DNA of 64,000 nucleotides from Nitrosospira multiformis (GTDB lineage Bacteria > Pseudomonadota > Gammaproteobacteria > Burkholderiales > Nitrosomonadaceae): assembly GCF_003050865.1 (NCBI RefSeq), contig NZ_QAOK01000007.1, forward strand, positions 1-64,000, written 5' to 3'. The position numbers were made by a program, and so were the translations under genes. This document shows, piece by piece, positions 22,718-36,168 of this stretch. How positions within the stretch are numbered: position 1 is the first letter of the stretch; every line of letters starts with the position of its first letter. A model generated the notes under the pieces. It was given only the letters and a program-made list of their open reading frames with translations. It was not told the origin of the DNA and did no database searches.

Positions 22718-22735
22718 CTTTTCCTGAATAAAGTC

Positions 22736-22940
22736 CCCGCAAATGCCGTCAGGTCTTTTATCTTGAACCTTAGGGTTCAAGGTGGTCACTTGCCGGATGC
22801 ATCAGGCGCTTCCGCATGGGATGCGCACAACAGCATCGCTCTGGTTCGCAACCGTTTCTCAAAAAGTTGGTTCAAAGAATATAGACCTTGACAAACACCG
22901 CAGGGAACGACCCTTGCCACTCCCGCGGTATTCAGCGCAA
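22736..22940 (-). ncRNA. ssrS: 6S RNA
   Basis: 6S RNA binds sigma-70 RNA polymerase and imitates an open promoter. Directly downstream of zapA, its usual position, the minus strand carries the conserved 3' hairpin CACCTTGAACCCTAAGGGTT (then CAAG) and GACGGCATTTGCGGGG. Near the 5' end is GGCAAGGGTCGTTCCCTG, matching the conserved 5' bulge region of the family. ACGGCATT near the 3' end can pair imperfectly with AATACCG near the 5' end to close the rod. Ends are approximate. A strong terminator follows at 22691-22717. Confidence 0.85.
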
Positions 22941-22989: not shown

Positions 22990-23304
22990 TTAAAACAGTT
23001 TGTCCTGCTCCGGCATGGCAGCATCGAGCATTGCCTGCATGTGATCGATTCTACGCCTAAATTCTTCCGTGTCAAAGCCTTCCTTGTTTCTCGCATTGAG
23101 CAACTCATGGGTGATATTCAGGGCTGCCATGACGGTGATGCGCTCAGAGCCGAGTACTTTGCCGCTGTCCCTGATTTCGCGCATCTTCTTGTTGAGATAG
23201 GCTACCGCTTGTAGCAACCCCTCGCGCTCTTCATCTGAGCAGCTCACTCTGAACTCCCGCCCCATGATAGTGACATCCAGGGTCTTGCCCGTGCCTGTAT
23301 TCAT
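22990..23304 (-). CDS. zapA: Cell division protein ZapA
   Basis: ZapA (104 residues) bundles FtsZ filaments at the division ring. The N-terminal VTIMGREFRVSCSDEEREGL and the helical part (AYLNKKMREIRDSGK, ERITVMAALNITHELL) are typical, and the length is normal. The start overlaps the end of the preceding small coiled-coil gene by four bases (ATGA), and 6S RNA follows, matching the order zapB-like / zapA / ssrS seen in many beta- and gammaproteobacteria. Confidence 0.94.
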   Translation of the reverse strand: MNTGTGKTLDVTIMGREFRVSCSDEEREGLLQAVAYLNKKMREIRDSGKVLGSERITVMAALNITHELLNARNKEGFDTEEFRRRIDHMQAMLDAAMPEQDKLF

Positions 23305-23504: not shown

Positions 23505-23668
23505 AGCACTATAGTTTGGAAATCCTCAGTCAGTCAACTGCTAGCACGGTCTTTCGAATGTGGCTTCAGGAAAGGTGTGGGATATATGAGACAGCTCAGC
23601 TTACAGCAAGGGTTTTAAATCATTTCGCATGATCTATTCCACGGTTCTGGTAGAATGCTGCCTCGTTT

Positions 23669-23876
23669 GAGGTGCCTGCCCGCTTCCCGCGGTCAGGTTA
23701 AACGGGAACCAGGTCAGGGATCGATGAAGATCCCCGGATGCCTGGGCTGCCCCCGCAACGGTAAGCAGGCGTGGACGTATCAGGGAAATCCTCCAGGGTT
23801 TCCTAATGCCACTGTGAATTCTCCAGTTCATGGGAAGGCGATGCGTCAAATCCTGCGAGCCCGGATACCGGCCTCG
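23669..23876 (+). promoter_or_regulatory. Cobalamin riboswitch
   Basis: The stretch shows the ordered blocks of the B12 riboswitch: GAGGTGCCTGCCC, GTTAAACGGGAACCAGGTC, CCTGGGCTGCCCCCGCAACG with GTAAGCAGGCG, then GCCACTG, CATGGGAAGGCG, and the B12 box AGCCCGGATACCGGCC at 23858-23873. It lies 125 bases before a TonB-dependent receptor, which it should repress when cobalamin is bound. A TAGAAT at 23651-23656 is a possible -10. Confidence 0.95.
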
Positions 23877-24000
23877 GATGCGTATGGACATATCGCGTGG
23901 GGCGGTATCCTGATCGATATTTCTTTCGTTCGAAGCTCCCGCGATATTTTCCTGTTTCCTTGTTCTCACGGCGGGGATACATATCCCTCGGGCAATTATC

Positions 24001-26067
24001 ATGGGTTTGTTTCGCAGGCATGTCGTGCCATTGGTCTTCATTTCCGTTCCTTCAGGGGCGCTTGCCGTGTCCGGCGATCCGGCGGAGCGATTGCTCCCTG
24101 ACGTCGTTGTCACGGCAACCCGCTTCAGCGAGCCCATCGACAAGCTGCCCACCGGGGTTTCCATCGTCAATGCGGAACAGATCAGAAACAGCGCCGCCTC
24201 GACTTTACCGGAGTTGCTGCAACAATTGTCTGGCATACATACCAGAAATGTCGATGGCAGTCCCGATCCGCAGATCGATATGCGCGGATTTGGTATCACC
24301 GGCAACGAGAACACTCTGGTTTTGCTGGATGGTCAACGCATGAACGAAAATGAACTGACCGGTATCCGCTGGTCGACGATTCCTCTCGATACCATCGAGC
24401 GCATCGAAGTATTGCACGGCAGCGGCAGCGTAGTTTATGGAGCAGGCGCTACCGGGGGTGTCATCAATATCGTAACACGTGCTGCCAAGCCCGGTCGCAT
24501 ATCGGGTACGGGAGGAGTTTCCTTCGGCAGCTACAGCGGCACGGAATTCAACGGAACACTCAACGCGGCAGGGAGCAACATCGGGCTGGCGCTCACGGCC
24601 AATGCGTTGCGAACAGACAACTACCGCGTGAATAACGCGCTGCGTCAATCGAATCTGCAGGGCGATCTGCGTTACCGGTTCAACAGCGGCAGGGCGTTGC
24701 TGAAGTTCGGACTGGATGATCAGAAACTGGAACTGCCTGCCAATCGCACTGAAGCACAGTTGCAAACCGACCGGAGAGGCACCTCGACTCCGCGCGATTT
24801 CAGCACTCGCCAAGGTGCATACGTCACGCTGAGAGGAGAGAAAGAGACGGGATTCGGTGATCTTGCCGCGGACCTTTCATTTCGGGACAACCACCGTACC
24901 GCATTATTCGACGATTACAATCTGGACGACTTCAACGCCAAAACATTCGTCAATTCCCGCTCAGACCAGTGGCTGTTCAACCCGAGGATGAAGTTGCCCT
25001 TTGCGGCTTTCGGCATGGAACACGAACTGGTACTGGGCGCGAATTTCGAATGGTGGGATTATCGATCGAGACGGTTTACTGGACCGGAAACAATGCCAGG
25101 TTCGGCATCCGCCGATATCCCGCGAACGGATGTAGTGGCGACCCAGCTAAACCGTGCGATTTATTTTCAACAAGCCTCCACTTTACCTAAAGGTACCGTT
25201 GTCAGCCTTGGGGGGCGGCTGCAATGGGTAGACAACCGGGCGAATGACCATTTCAATCCCGCTGCTTACGCCAGCGGCCGGCAGAGTCGTACGGTTTATG
25301 CCTATGATGCAGGTCTTCGCCAGCCCCTGGGGGAAGCTTTTTCGGTCTATGGCAGATTTGGCCGCAGTTTCCGGATAGCTACAGTGGACGAAAACTACAA
25401 CCAGTTTGGCGGTCCAATGTTCGATTCCATAGTGAAGATTCTCGAACCGCAAACTGCCCATACTGGGGAGCTCGGACTGGATTACAAGCAGAAGTCCCTA
25501 CGGGCGCGCGCTTCGCTCTACCGAACCAACCTCAACAATGAAATCAGCTTCATAAACATAGACCCGTTCCTGTTCTTTGCCAACGTCAATCTGCCGCCCA
25601 CGCGGCGGCAGGGTTTTGAGCTGGAAGGCTCATGGACAGTGACGAGCGCAATCGATATATTCGGCAACTATACGTTTATCGATGCACGCTTTCGGAAGGG
25701 GGATTTTGGTGGTGTGGATGTATCCGGCAACCTCGTCCCGCTAGTGCCGCGTCATAAGGTTTCGGCTGGAGGTACATACCGGTTGGGCTCCAATACCCGC
25801 GCGGCAGTGGTCATGAATTATGTAGGTGAACAGGTTTTCGATAACGATCAAGCCAACACCGCCACGCGTCGTATGCCGGATTATGTCACTGTAGATCTCA
25901 AGGTGACTCATCAGATGAGGAAACTGCTGTTGAGCATGGCCGTGAACAACCTGTTTGATGAAAAGTATTTTTCCTATGCCATTCGCAATTCGGCGGGCAC
26001 GAGCTTCAGCGCACTGCCTGCCCGGGAACGCAACGTCTGGCTCACGGTAAAGTATCAATTCGACTGA
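24001..26067 (+). CDS. TonB-dependent outer-membrane receptor under B12 control (BtuB-like)
   Basis: A 688-residue outer-membrane beta-barrel. A short signal peptide (about 1-22) is followed by the TonB box DVVVTATR (33-40), the plug (LPELLQQLSGIHTRN, DMRGFGITGNENTLVLLDG, IERIEVLHGSGSVVYGAGAT, GGVINIVTR) and the barrel ending FDEKYFSYAIRN ... WLTVKYQFD. Cobalamin or another corrinoid is the likely ligand because of the upstream riboswitch. No btuCDF genes follow; the next gene is a degenerate ABC exporter. The ATG at 24001 lacks a clear ribosome site. Confidence 0.92.
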   Translation: MGLFRRHVVPLVFISVPSGALAVSGDPAERLLPDVVVTATRFSEPIDKLPTGVSIVNAEQIRNSAASTLPELLQQLSGIHTRNVDGSPDPQIDMRGFGITGNENTLVLLDGQRMNENELTGIRWSTIPLDTIERIEVLHGSGSVVYGAGATGGVINIVTRAAKPGRISGTGGVSFGSYSGTEFNGTLNAAGSNIGLALTANALRTDNYRVNNALRQSNLQGDLRYRFNSGRALLKFGLDDQKLELPANRTEAQLQTDRRGTSTPRDFSTRQGAYVTLRGEKETGFGDLAADLSFRDNHRTALFDDYNLDDFNAKTFVNSRSDQWLFNPRMKLPFAAFGMEHELVLGANFEWWDYRSRRFTGPETMPGSASADIPRTDVVATQLNRAIYFQQASTLPKGTVVSLGGRLQWVDNRANDHFNPAAYASGRQSRTVYAYDAGLRQPLGEAFSVYGRFGRSFRIATVDENYNQFGGPMFDSIVKILEPQTAHTGELGLDYKQKSLRARASLYRTNLNNEISFINIDPFLFFANVNLPPTRRQGFELEGSWTVTSAIDIFGNYTFIDARFRKGDFGGVDVSGNLVPLVPRHKVSAGGTYRLGSNTRAAVVMNYVGEQVFDNDQANTATRRMPDYVTVDLKVTHQMRKLLLSMAVNNLFDEKYFSYAIRNSAGTSFSALPARERNVWLTVKYQFD

Positions 26068-26376: not shown

Positions 26377-28230
26377 ATGCAAGACACACAAAATAGCGGC
26401 ACCCGCCAATTATGCCTGCGCCTGATGAGATACGTCGCGCCGTACTGGGACGCGCTCATCCTTGCAGCAGCTTGCATGATTGCGACAGCGGCGACCGTTC
26501 CCATGCTGGCTGCATTGGTGCAGCCGACCATGGACGAGGTTATCGCGAACAGGAATCCCGAGTTGCTGCAACTCGTGCTCTTGGGAATCATCAGCTTGTT
26601 TGCGGTGCGCGCGGTAGCCGGGCACCTCGCGACTTACGTACTCCATTGGGCAGGCAGCAAACTGGTGGCGGATCTGCTCTGCGAGATATTCGACAAGCTG
26701 CTTGTATTGCCGCATTCGTATTACGAATCCTGCTCCGGCAGCAATCACATTTCGGTCGATCATGTCTCCAGGATAACATCCGATGCCCCGGAGGTGGCAC
26801 GCGCTTTTGTCAACGTGGTGACGGTGATGATCAAAGACACGTTCACTGCCATTGGTTTGCTTGCATGGATGTTTTATCTTAACTGGACGCTTGCCTTGCT
26901 GGTTTTGTTGATGTCATCCGTGATTCTGCTGGTCACGCAACTGCTTGGAGAACAGCTGCGGGAGATGGGACGGAAAAGCGGGCGAGCGATGGAGGGCCTC
27001 ACCCGGATTCTGAAAGGCTCTGCAGTGAATTTCACGGTGGTCAAGCTCTATGGCGGCGAGCAATATGAGAACCGGCGCATGAGAGAGCAGGCGGAGGAGA
27101 CACGCCGATTTTTCATGAAACGAGTTGCTGTTGCCTCTCTTTATGTTCCTTTGATACAAACCATTGGTGCTGCTGCCGTAGTGCTCACCCTCTATTTCGC
27201 CGCAAGTGAGGCAGTTGCCGGTGAAATCACGGCAGGAAGCTTTACTTCTCTTATCGCGGCCATTCTGCTGCTGATTGCTCCCGCGAAGCGAATGGCTGAA
27301 GTGGGAGAAATACTCCAACGCGGACTGCTCGCCGCTGGAAGCCTGTTTTCATTACTTGACGGGGAGGTGGAGCCGGAGACAGGAACCATCGTTATTCAGC
27401 GGGCGCGCGGGGAGCTGCAATTCGAGGAGGTCGGTTACGGCGAGCGTGCGGAGGGGAATCCTGGCGCCTCGTTAAAGGTTCATTCCATGGCGGATTCCGA
27501 TCCGGCGGCAGCACAGGGGAGCGCACTTCATCCCGGATTGCGCGACGTTACCTTGATCATTCAGCCGGGTGAGACAGTGGCGGTGGTCGGGTGCGCGGAA
27601 ACCATGGATGTACTTACGTGTATGGTGCCGCGTTTCCTCAATCCCACATCCGGGAGAATCCTGCTGGATGGGCATGATCTCAGGAACATCACGCTGGCGA
27701 GCCTGCGAGCCAACATTGCATTGGTATCTCCGCACACGGCGCTGTTCAATGACACTGTCGCGGCGAATATTGCATATGGTGCAATGGGGCGTGCCACCGA
27801 AGGACGGATTACGTGGGCAGCTCGCGCCGCTCACGCATCCGAGTTCATCCGGAGGTTGCCGGATGGGTTGCAGACCGTGGTCGGGCAGGACGGCGTGGAA
27901 CTTCCCGTCAGCCAGCGGCTGCGCATCGCCGTTGCGCGGGCGCTTCTGAAAAATGCGCCTCTATTGATCCTGAACGAGAAGCTTGGAATGATGGAGCCGG
28001 AGTCAGCGCCTCTTGTGCAGGCAGCGTTGGATACCGCGATGCAAGGCCGTACCACGTTCGTTATTGCGGATCGTTTATCCACGCTGGAGAAAGCAGACCA
28101 GGTGGTCATGGTGGACAAAGAGCGCATTGTGGAAAGGGGCTCACATCGGGAATTGATGGCAAGAGATGGAGCTTATACCCGCTTGGTTCGCAGGTTGTTT
28201 GTTTCGAGAGGTGCAGTAGTAGCTCGATGA
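26377..28230 (+). CDS. MsbA-like ABC exporter with degenerate ATPase motifs
   Basis: A full-length (617-residue) half-transporter: six membrane segments (about 25-305) then an ABC domain. The overall match to MsbA is clear (SGRILLDGHDLRNITLASLR, ALFNDTVAANIAYG, RIAVARALLKNAPLLIL, VIADRLSTLEKADQVV). Yet each catalytic motif is replaced. Walker A reads GCAETMDVLT at 405-414 with no GKST; the Q-loop Gln is Pro452; the signature is LPVSQ (509-513), not LSGGQ; Walker B Asp is Asn533 (Glu534 kept); the D-loop is GMME; the H-loop His is Asp565. An extra segment of about 25 residues precedes Walker A. ATP hydrolysis is unlikely unless a partner NBD supplies it. The frame is intact throughout. Confidence 0.9.
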   Translation: MQDTQNSGTRQLCLRLMRYVAPYWDALILAAACMIATAATVPMLAALVQPTMDEVIANRNPELLQLVLLGIISLFAVRAVAGHLATYVLHWAGSKLVADLLCEIFDKLLVLPHSYYESCSGSNHISVDHVSRITSDAPEVARAFVNVVTVMIKDTFTAIGLLAWMFYLNWTLALLVLLMSSVILLVTQLLGEQLREMGRKSGRAMEGLTRILKGSAVNFTVVKLYGGEQYENRRMREQAEETRRFFMKRVAVASLYVPLIQTIGAAAVVLTLYFAASEAVAGEITAGSFTSLIAAILLLIAPAKRMAEVGEILQRGLLAAGSLFSLLDGEVEPETGTIVIQRARGELQFEEVGYGERAEGNPGASLKVHSMADSDPAAAQGSALHPGLRDVTLIIQPGETVAVVGCAETMDVLTCMVPRFLNPTSGRILLDGHDLRNITLASLRANIALVSPHTALFNDTVAANIAYGAMGRATEGRITWAARAAHASEFIRRLPDGLQTVVGQDGVELPVSQRLRIAVARALLKNAPLLILNEKLGMMEPESAPLVQAALDTAMQGRTTFVIADRLSTLEKADQVVMVDKERIVERGSHRELMARDGAYTRLVRRLFVSRGAVVAR

Positions 28231-33161: not shown

Positions 33162-35174
33162 CTATGCGATACGAGACTGGAGCACCTGGGAAACAGGGGC
33201 AATTGATTCCGCGCTCGAGTATTCCGGAACCCATCTGGGCAGTTCCCGCCTGACTTCTTCGTCACTCAGGGCCGGATGCTCGTCAAGCCATGCCAGCAGA
33301 GCTGTCAGCCATTTTTTGTCTACCTGGCGCGCCTGTGCGATACGCAATTTTGGGTGGGGTGTGGGAAGCGTATTTTCGTCATCCGCCAACAGTTCTTCAT
33401 GAAGTTTTTCGCCGGGACGCAAGCCATTGTAGACAATTTTTATTTCATCCTCGCTCAATCCGGAAAGACGGATCAAATCTCTCGCAAGATCGGCGATTTT
33501 GATCGGTTCACCCATATCCAGCACGAAAATTTCGTCCCCACGCCGCTTGCCACCCATCAACCCCGCCTGTAGCACCAACTGCGCTGCTTCAGGTATGGAC
33601 ATGAAATATCGGGTGATTTCCGAGTGGGTTACCGTTATCGGTCCCCCTTTTTCAATCTGCTCCCGGAACTTGGGAATCACGCTGCCCGCGCTGCCCAGCA
33701 CGTTACCGAAACGCACCATGACAAATCGCGGCTCCTGCCTCCTTTCGAGCCTGCCGCCCGAAACAATTCTGCCGGAGACATTTTCGGCAGGACTGTCAGG
33801 GGAGGCAATCGACTGCTGTAACGCCTGGCACACCATTTCAGCCAGGCGCTTGCTCGCGCCCATGACATTGGTGGGATTGACGGCCTTGTCGGTCGAAATC
33901 AGTACGAATTTCTCCACCCCGTACCGGATCGCGGCTTGCGCCAGCACATAGGTTCCGCGGACGTTGTTCAACACTGCCTGCCATGCATTTTCCTGTTCCA
34001 TCAGGGGCACATGCTTATAGGCGGCAGCATGAAACACGATAGCCGGCCTGTATTGCAGGAATACCTGGGACAGCCGCGCTTCATCCTTGACATCGCCAAT
34101 GGCGAATATCATGGGAATCTCGGGAAAATCAGCCTGGAATTCCTGCTCTATGCTGTACAGCGCAAATTCATTCAATTCGAACAGCACCAGTTGGGCCGGG
34201 GTGAATTTGGCGATCTGCCGGCACAATTCCGATCCGATCGAACCACCAGCGCCTGTAATCAGCACGGTTTTTCCCGTCAGCAAATCGTGAAGCCCATCGT
34301 TATCCAGCACGACGGGATCCCGCCCCAGCAGATCTTCCGGCTCGACTGTCCGGATTTGCGACACCTTGATGTTGCCGCTGATCAGGTCGTTATAGGAAGG
34401 GACGATCAAGGCCTTTACCCCTGCCGCCGCACACATTTGCAAGGCCCGACGGCGGTCGCGCAGGAGGCGGTCGGGACGGCGGCGGTCAGAGCGGGCGCGA
34501 TAGGATTTGCGGCGCTCTGAAGTGGAGGAGGTGAGGGCGATGATGGCGTGGGCGACACCCAGTTTCCGGGCTACCACCGGCAGATCGTTGATGCGGCCCA
34601 GTACTTTGAATCCGTGCAGCATCAGCCCCTGCCTGGCCGGATCGTCGTCAAGGAAACCTGCGACACGCCATTCCACATTGCGCGCCAACTCTTTTACCAG
34701 GCCAACAGCAGCATCACTTGCTCCCATCACCAGGACGAGATTGCCGCCCGCTTTACTTTGGCCGTAGAGCCGGTGTTCCTTCCAGAACCGGTAAGCGAGA
34801 CGGCTGCTTCCCATGATGAACAGCAGCAGGATGGGAGCCAGTATCAGCACCGTTCTGGGCACACCGACCAGTATCTGCAACATGTATAGCACCAATGGAA
34901 CGGCTGTGGCCGAGGCGGATACGGCAAACAGGATGCGCCGCAGATCAGGCAGGCTTGCGTAATGCCAGAGTCCACGATAAAGGCCGAAGAATAAGAAGGC
35001 CGCCGCGTGTATCGGGACCACCCACGGCAGGATCTCTTCTAAAGATGCCAGATAAACGAAGGGTATCTCGAAATTGAAGCGGAACAGATAAGCCAGCGAC
35101 CAGGCGATAGCGGCAGCTACAACATCATGCCCGAATGCAATAACCGTTCTTATGTTGAGTTTGGGTGTCGGCAT
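33162..35174 (-). CDS. CapD-like polysaccharide biosynthesis protein (nucleotide-sugar dehydratase)
   Basis: A 670-residue membrane enzyme. Four N-terminal membrane segments (about 10-125) are followed by a first Rossmann-like region and then the SDR catalytic domain (about 315-600). The SDR domain has TVLITGAGGSIGSELCRQI, DKAVNPTNVMGASKRLAE (with the Lys of the SDR active site) and MVRFGNVLGSAGSVIPKF. It likely acts as a UDP-GlcNAc 4,6-dehydratase/epimerase for surface glycan. Two in-frame insertions stand out: an Arg-rich one at about 222-246 built on a 15-base repeat, and a Ser/Gly/Arg stretch before MVRFGN. It follows the WecA-like gene by one base, forming an operon. Confidence 0.9.
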   Translation of the reverse strand: MPTPKLNIRTVIAFGHDVVAAAIAWSLAYLFRFNFEIPFVYLASLEEILPWVVPIHAAAFLFFGLYRGLWHYASLPDLRRILFAVSASATAVPLVLYMLQILVGVPRTVLILAPILLLFIMGSSRLAYRFWKEHRLYGQSKAGGNLVLVMGASDAAVGLVKELARNVEWRVAGFLDDDPARQGLMLHGFKVLGRINDLPVVARKLGVAHAIIALTSSTSERRKSYRARSDRRRPDRLLRDRRRALQMCAAAGVKALIVPSYNDLISGNIKVSQIRTVEPEDLLGRDPVVLDNDGLHDLLTGKTVLITGAGGSIGSELCRQIAKFTPAQLVLFELNEFALYSIEQEFQADFPEIPMIFAIGDVKDEARLSQVFLQYRPAIVFHAAAYKHVPLMEQENAWQAVLNNVRGTYVLAQAAIRYGVEKFVLISTDKAVNPTNVMGASKRLAEMVCQALQQSIASPDSPAENVSGRIVSGGRLERRQEPRFVMVRFGNVLGSAGSVIPKFREQIEKGGPITVTHSEITRYFMSIPEAAQLVLQAGLMGGKRRGDEIFVLDMGEPIKIADLARDLIRLSGLSEDEIKIVYNGLRPGEKLHEELLADDENTLPTPHPKLRIAQARQVDKKWLTALLAWLDEHPALSDEEVRRELPRWVPEYSSAESIAPVSQVLQSRIA
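34443..34487. repeat. Three 15-base repeats inside the CapD-like gene
   Basis: On the minus strand three 15-base units each begin GACCGCC and encode DRRRP, DRLLR and DRRRA (residues 230-244). They fall between the conserved SSTSERRKS and CAAAGVKAL blocks, which are nearly contiguous in related proteins. Confidence 0.8.
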
Positions 35175-35175
35175 G

Positions 35176-36168
35176 TTATGAACCGTCAGCGCTATGCCGC
35201 AAATGGCGATCGCAAAGGCGCAGCATGATGAGATAAACTGCGATCCACGCCGCCACCATCCCGAACTGAACGCTAGGGTGTTGCCGGGCTGCCCAGAGGG
35301 CGCTGAGCGCTGAGGCTGCCATGAGAATGTAACCGATCAGAGCTGTATTGCGATGGCCCCAGCCGCTGCGCACCAGGCGCTGGTAGTAATGCTCGCGATG
35401 CGCCCGCCAGACTTTTTCCCCCCGCAGCCCGCGCTTTATCAAGGTGACGGAAGCATCGACAATAAACGGCGAAAATACCAGCACGGGGAACCACAGGGGC
35501 CAACACCCATTCATCCATCCCGTCATACCCAAGGCCGCAGCCAGGAATCCGAGCGGAATCGAGCCGGCGTCCCCCAGGAAAATGCGCGCGGGATGAAAAT
35601 TAAACAATAGAAAAGCCGCTGCTGCCGCGGCAATGCAGAAGTTGGCAATCGCAAAGGCCTCGTTTCCGGAAACCCAGGCAGTTGCCCCATAGCAACTGAA
35701 ACCGATCAGGGTCATGCCGCCTGCCAATCCATCCGAACCATCCATGAAATTATAGAGGTTGAGCATCCAGGTAACGGCAAGCGCGGCTGCTATCGCGACA
35801 ATCCAGCCGTGAGTAGCGGCGAGGGTCATGGCGGAGAACCAGGCTCCCAGTCCCATATACATGGCAAGTCTTGGCCATACAGGCAAGCCGCGCACATCAT
35901 CGGCGAAAGATATCGTTACCAGCAGCACGATCGCTACCCATATCAACAATGCCGGCCTGACAGGCAGAAACGCCCAGGAAATGAGAACTCCCGATATCAG
36001 TCCCAGGCCTCCTGTGCGAGGAACAGGACGAGTGTGCAGCGATCGGGAATTCGGCTGATCCAGTACCTTGAGAATATTCCCCCTGATCAGATACGAAATC
36101 ATCCCTAGCGACACGATAAACGCTATGAATGGGGGAATCAGATATGGAATCGAGGAGCCGGAAATCAT
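35176..36168 (-). CDS. WecA/MraY-family glycosyl-1-phosphate transferase
   Basis: A 330-residue polytopic membrane protein, about ten hydrophobic segments, of glycosyltransferase family 4. It transfers a sugar-1-phosphate to undecaprenyl phosphate to start O-antigen or similar glycan. RSLHTRPVPRTGGLGL, SFADDVRGLPVWPR, NLYNFMDGSDGLAGG and FLGDAGSIPLGFL are the catalytic cytosolic loops with conserved Asp residues. The stop lies one base before the CapD-like start, so the two work together. MraY is unlikely, since no murein genes surround it. Confidence 0.92.
   Translation of the reverse strand: MISGSSIPYLIPPFIAFIVSLGMISYLIRGNILKVLDQPNSRSLHTRPVPRTGGLGLISGVLISWAFLPVRPALLIWVAIVLLVTISFADDVRGLPVWPRLAMYMGLGAWFSAMTLAATHGWIVAIAAALAVTWMLNLYNFMDGSDGLAGGMTLIGFSCYGATAWVSGNEAFAIANFCIAAAAAAFLLFNFHPARIFLGDAGSIPLGFLAAALGMTGWMNGCWPLWFPVLVFSPFIVDASVTLIKRGLRGEKVWRAHREHYYQRLVRSGWGHRNTALIGYILMAASALSALWAARQHPSVQFGMVAAWIAVYLIMLRLCDRHLRHSADGS

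Follow-up and report, generated by a model that had tools for sequence, protein, structure and literature searches.

MsbA is the textbook ATP-binding cassette (ABC) flippase and a drug target. The ABC exporter fold has also been reused in a non-pump role, as in SUR and CFTR, both of which still bind ATP. Type I exporters with degenerate sites (TM287/288, BmrCD, TAP, and MRP1) have lost catalytic residues under continued selection and, according to passages of PMC7756269, keep one competent composite site. Here, we analyzed a 64,000-nucleotide stretch of the Nitrosospira multiformis genome (contig NZ_QAOK01000007.1, positions 1 to 64,000; the window) and describe a gene at 26377-28230 (+ strand) that encodes an MsbA ortholog lacking its ATPase motifs. 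The product shares with MsbA its fold, length, gene neighborhood, and clade, and it is 38% identical over a structural alignment to 6o30. The best NCBIfam model is likewise MsbA (TIGR02203). Unlike MsbA, the protein has no complete ATP site, it scores 520.7 bits against a curated cut-off of 602, and LpxC was not found in its host or family. It resembles the degenerate-site exporters in having lost catalytic residues under continued selection; unlike them, it is left with no half of an ATP site and has no competent site. Unlike in SUR and CFTR, the nucleotide-site residues are gone.

The translated frame is open over 617 residues with no internal stops, as an earlier note on this DNA had stated. 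Pfam ABC_membrane and ABC_tran both matched above their cut-offs; together with a predicted structural model and the structural alignment, they describe a type I ABC exporter, with a six-helix transmembrane domain (TMD) fused to a nucleotide-binding domain (NBD) fold. The TMD spans residues 9-330 (26401-27366; ABC_membrane at 27-301; helices in the predicted model). A linker/A-loop region follows (residues 357-385; 27445-27531; predicted local distance difference test score of <50), with an insertion of ∼24 residues that falls within residues 355-385. The NBD fold (residues 388-605; 27538-28191) is mostly well predicted and lacks a complete ATP site. In alignments, Walker A is replaced by GCAETMDV (G405-V412; 27589-27612), the Q-loop Gln by Pro452 (27730-27732), the signature by LPVSQ (residues 509-513; 27901-27915), and the H-loop His by Asp565 (28069-28071). 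The Walker B/D-loop segment reads NEKLGMME (residues 533-540; 27973-27996), in which N533 takes the place of the Asp, Glu534 is kept, and the D-loop (KLGMME) is lost. None of the elements looked for in an MsbA (Walker A, Q-loop, LSGGQ, Walker B Asp, and H-loop) is intact. The earlier note had every ATPase motif replaced, which is slightly too strong because E534 is kept; its remark that the motif flanks are preserved agrees with the two Pfam matches and with identities that, among the matches listed, reach 47% against intact MsbA of betaproteobacteria.

Four other genomes encode proteins with 87-92% identity in which the Walker A core, the Q-loop Pro, the Walker B Asn, and the H-loop Asp are identical; the signature is broken there too (LPVNQ, LPISQ, LRGSQ, and LPVSQ). 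The same losses in these four genomes exclude an assembly error. The changes are shared among these closest relatives, with variation in the signature; beyond them, relatives that are 36-58% identical carry differently broken motifs.

We followed the gene through 125 genomes of the family and 150 of the order, both samples being partly draft or metagenome assembled. A protein search of the family genomes gave a match at E ≤1e-60 in 39, including 23/23 of the window's genus, and none of the 30 best, which were aligned first, has a Walker A that fits GxxxxGK[ST]. With an alignment of 27 broken members as the query, a broken ortholog was found in 74 of 80 genomes searched from the largest genus, and twelve leftover genomes yielded six more. 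With duplicate loci from the same genomes (L069 and L143) excluded, the total is 119 of 125 family genomes, and the Walker A and signature patterns occur together in 0/119; single patterns survive in three proteins (Walker A in L236, signature in L023 and L025). Frames of at least 540 amino acids, counted partly from stop to stop, are present in 116/119, and the three shorter ones all lie at contig ends. In the largest genus, 71/74 frames span model positions ≤15 to ≥540 of 580. No broken ortholog was found in six family genomes (G002, G003, G017, G039, G056, and G124), four of which are rated <90% complete. The orthologs fall into genus groups: the window's Nitrosospira is in g1, a Nitrosovibrio record is in g4, and we infer that g3 is Nitrosomonas, mainly since lpxK was found in g3 only.

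We tallied motif residues in 113 broken proteins (leaving out the last six added) against 34 live ones, the live set being smaller and drawn from the best-scoring matches. The fourth Gly of Walker A is kept in 4 of the broken proteins, the sixth Gly in 5, and the Lys in 69; the Walker B Asp and Glu are kept in 100 and 94, the H-loop His in 12, and the Q-loop Gln in 13. None of the 34 live proteins has lost the Walker A Gly or Lys, the Q-loop Gln, the Walker B Asp or Glu, or the H-loop His. Both the Walker A and signature patterns matched in 30/30 order-level loci (L103 to L132).

In a phylogeny of 59 proteins, the 27 broken ones form a clade of their own (ultrafast bootstrap [UFBoot] support, 100), placed among live betaproteobacterial MsbA; seven other exporters split from all MsbA, also with a UFBoot support of 100. 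The clade and the synteny described below indicate descent from a betaproteobacterial msbA. Judged from sequence, the protein is the ancestral, vertically inherited MsbA of the family, not a paralog kept beside a live copy. The earlier note had proposed looking for an intact MsbA elsewhere in the genome. The four exporters of the same genome that were placed in the tree (L043 to L046) all fall outside MsbA, grouping with other exporters (UFBoot, 100), and a paralog beside a live MsbA is rejected for this genome; the tree lacks two further own-genome exporters, L049 and L050. Across the family, the TIGR02203 cut-off is exceeded in 6/125 genomes versus 132/150 in the order. That other family genomes hold a live MsbA was likewise rejected: among the matches listed, five of the six above-cut-off rows are the broken protein itself, and the sixth was not identified. 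A one-pattern scan of named genomes, which returned mostly live MsbA and in which flanks of up to 6 kb were viewed, gave 80 loci among the matches listed; 76 are motif intact, and the four broken ones belong to Nitrosospira or Nitrosovibrio.

The ratio of nonsynonymous to synonymous substitution rates (dN/dS) for five close genomes is 0.276 overall, 0.258 for the TMD, and 0.243 for the NBD; for 14 Nitrosospira genomes, the values are 0.272, 0.290, and 0.210, respectively. Values of ∼0.2-0.29 in both domains indicate purifying selection. From a rough product (tree length of 0.70 per codon times a stop fraction of 0.024), ∼10 stop changes would be expected among the five closest genomes if the gene were neutral, and 0 were seen. 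The gene thus has neither an interrupted frame nor a dN/dS near 1, and recent local decay is rejected on dN/dS, open frames, and family-wide distribution. The earlier note had suggested a kept non-ATPase role, which gains support from dN/dS values of 0.24-0.28 in the five closest genomes, the open broken orthologs in 119/125 genomes, and their single clade. Its refuting observation, relatives with intact motifs at the same locus and a dN/dS near 1, was seen in part: the motifs are intact in relatives beyond the family, some of which share the gene neighborhood, but dN/dS is far from 1. The remaining constraint is centered on the NBD helical subdomain (residues 456-500; 27742-27876), where conservation is retained in the motif-broken family and E475 (27799-27801) and Q499 (27871-27873) are newly invariant. 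Judging by this pattern, the ATP site may matter less than the NBD surface, which could act as a dimer or docking face.

The substrate of MsbA seems to be gone as well. The LpxC model matched 0/125 family genomes, including that of the window, leaving no sign of host-made lipid A, whereas LpxC was found in 143/150 order genomes; of the seven without it, five belong to this family and two to another. LptD, of the lipopolysaccharide transport (Lpt) machinery, was found in 124/125 family genomes, and the window's genome carries two LptF/LptG-family genes. From these gene contents, lipid A synthesis appears to have been lost and the Lpt bridge kept. Our lpx searches covered LpxC and LpxK; LpxK was found in 82/125 family genomes, all of group g3 and none of the window's genus. 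Lipid A gene loss is already in print: passages of PMC3087551 report only lpxK in Nitrosomonas europaea and only lpxA in N. multiformis, and the term "msbA" is absent from its main text. Among the titles listed by our literature searches, none was on MsbA in these ammonia oxidizers, and no paper came up for Nitrosospira combined with MsbA. A lead toward a replacement lipid comes from passages of PMC11324152, which describe orthologs of ceramide genes in Nitrosomonas eutropha and, in Caulobacter, second Lpt proteins that serve sphingolipids.

Three further observations touch on lipid A. Two genomes of another family (G163 and G207, family f40) have neither an LpxC match nor a strong MsbA match and perhaps represent another lineage without lipid A. 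Many family genomes encode an intact exporter that is extended at its N terminus (G000:C5:40736-42454 and relatives; frames of ∼760-820 amino acids); its score against the MsbA model is 460-480 bits, and it is a candidate flippase substitute. LpxK-like proteins are kept without LpxC in g3 (L153, L154, and L343 to L362); compared with one solved relative, 4ehw, the P-loop has DS in place of GN and the next Gly-Gly is changed in 22/22 examined of the 82 genomes with a match, and the P-loop Lys is often kept. The g3 LpxK may be another leftover of lipid A synthesis that was put to new use.

We consider it probable, at roughly 0.7, that this protein is the family's ancestral MsbA, stripped of its ATPase motifs after lipid A loss and now acting without ATP. 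By parsimony, the loss of LpxC and lipid A and the loss of the motor would both date to the family ancestor; lipid A loss would have preceded or accompanied motor loss, and loss of the substrate may have released the constraint on the ATPase.

Several observations weigh against this reading. Damage is graded between members, and the window's protein stands at the far end: L023 is damaged in Walker A only and keeps the Q-loop, signature, Walker B, and H-loop, and in L024 three of the Walker A Gly are kept along with the Lys, the Q-loop Gln, and Walker B, the only changes being at the Walker A Ser/Thr (to Ala), the signature Ser, the H-loop His, and parts of the D-loop. Because many members retain some of these residues, some may still bind nucleotide weakly or be weakly active; L023 and L024, the least damaged members, could also show an early stage of loss. 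The pairwise dN/dS of the gene is 0.15-0.29, and that of seven neighboring genes is 0.06-0.24; the gene evolves faster than most of its neighbors, under a constraint similar to that of the adjacent GGDEF-EAL gene. Six g4 sequences (L036, L037, L039, L040, L313, and L314) stop at 541-560 amino acids and so have lost part of the NBD C terminus. Finally, six order genomes (G173, G195, G213, G250, G264, and G266) have LpxC and no MsbA match at E ≤1e-150; the two genes are thus not perfectly linked in such data.

As to mechanism, our tentative preference is for a dimer that works independently of ATP, either as a scaffold that binds lipid, a role the earlier note had also offered, or as a passive facilitator. 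Its transmembrane chamber would hold an alternative envelope lipid or glycolipid or pass it into the retained Lpt bridge, and the dead NBD would serve as a dimerization or docking surface through the conserved helical subdomain with E475 and Q499. In a more speculative version, which we hold to be somewhat unlikely, remnants of lipid A metabolism were repurposed together, with the ATP-less MsbA and the g3 LpxK with its altered P-loop forming an ATP-independent glycolipid or sphingolipid route to the Lpt bridge.

The chamber has drifted, with an Arg at the R315 position in 9/113 broken proteins and a Gln at positions 153 and 304 in 37/113 and 23/113, respectively, and of the two halves, the TMD is the less conserved (0.46). 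Such a TMD suits a docking role better than a lipid chamber, another point against the scaffold. A regulatory or assembly subunit, whose NBD helical subdomain would dock onto a putative partner in the envelope while the TMD serves only as an anchor, is possible, if doubtful; a regulator was also among the roles offered by the earlier note. The concentration of conservation in residues 456-500 and the two new invariants also speak for it, but the TMD is still under purifying selection.

We regard as improbable that the protein is a still-energized flippase for a replacement glycolipid, powered through an unusual ATP site or by some other source of energy. The Lpt translocon is kept, many members retain the Walker A Lys and the Walker B acids, and a few are only slightly damaged, but the window's protein lacks the Walker A Lys, the Q-loop Gln, the signature, and the H-loop His. 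Slow decay, by which a useless remnant of the lipopolysaccharide pathway keeps an open frame by chance, has a small chance of being right. The apparent loss of the substrate pathway, motif positions that drifted differently and to differing degrees across lineages, faster evolution than most neighbors, the C-terminal loss in one genus, and the six family genomes in which no broken ortholog was found would all fit decay. Against it stand dN/dS values of 0.21-0.29 in all domains and sets, nearly full frames in 116/119 orthologs and 71/74 of the largest genus, the missing stops, and conservation that persists outside the motifs. That the protein is the dead half of a heterodimer, the partner role offered by the earlier note, is very unlikely despite intact half-size exporters in the genome, since by ABC geometry the loss of both Walker A and signature would leave neither composite ATP site complete, the degenerate-site exporters, which among known designs come nearest, retain one competent site (PMC7756269), and no second exporter was recognized among the neighboring frames looked at.

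The gene stands downstream of a B12-controlled receptor, as the earlier note had placed it: a cobalamin riboswitch (23653-23890, + strand; 90 bits) precedes a TonB-dependent receptor gene (24001-26067, + strand). Downstream lie a Polysacc_synt_2 (FlaA1/WbpM-like) gene (33162-35174, − strand) and a glycosyl transferase family 4 gene (35176-36168, − strand). This epimerase and glycosyltransferase pair recurs near the broken gene in 15 of the 18 contexts viewed, which come from g1, g3, and g4 among the four genus groups; among the misses, L055 and L056 end or diverge before that point, and none was found at L067. Live msbA genes, among the matches listed, have a receptor-like gene upstream in 17/76 and an EVE gene in 15/76. 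No promoter or terminator near the gene scored above shuffled sequences. Farther upstream, a 6S RNA gene (22730-22909, − strand) lies beside a ZapA gene (22990-23304, − strand); a frame overlapping this region, used as a probe, matched upstream of live msbA at L169 and L174, and the region may thus belong to the ancestral msbA neighborhood.

These findings indicate that a family of environmentally important bacteria keeps MsbA after the apparent loss of both its substrate pathway and its motor. This natural separation of scaffold from ATPase offers a way to ask what the MsbA TMD and NBD surface do without ATP, and it points to an outer membrane that would lack lipid A yet use Lpt, in bacteria responsible for much of nitrification.
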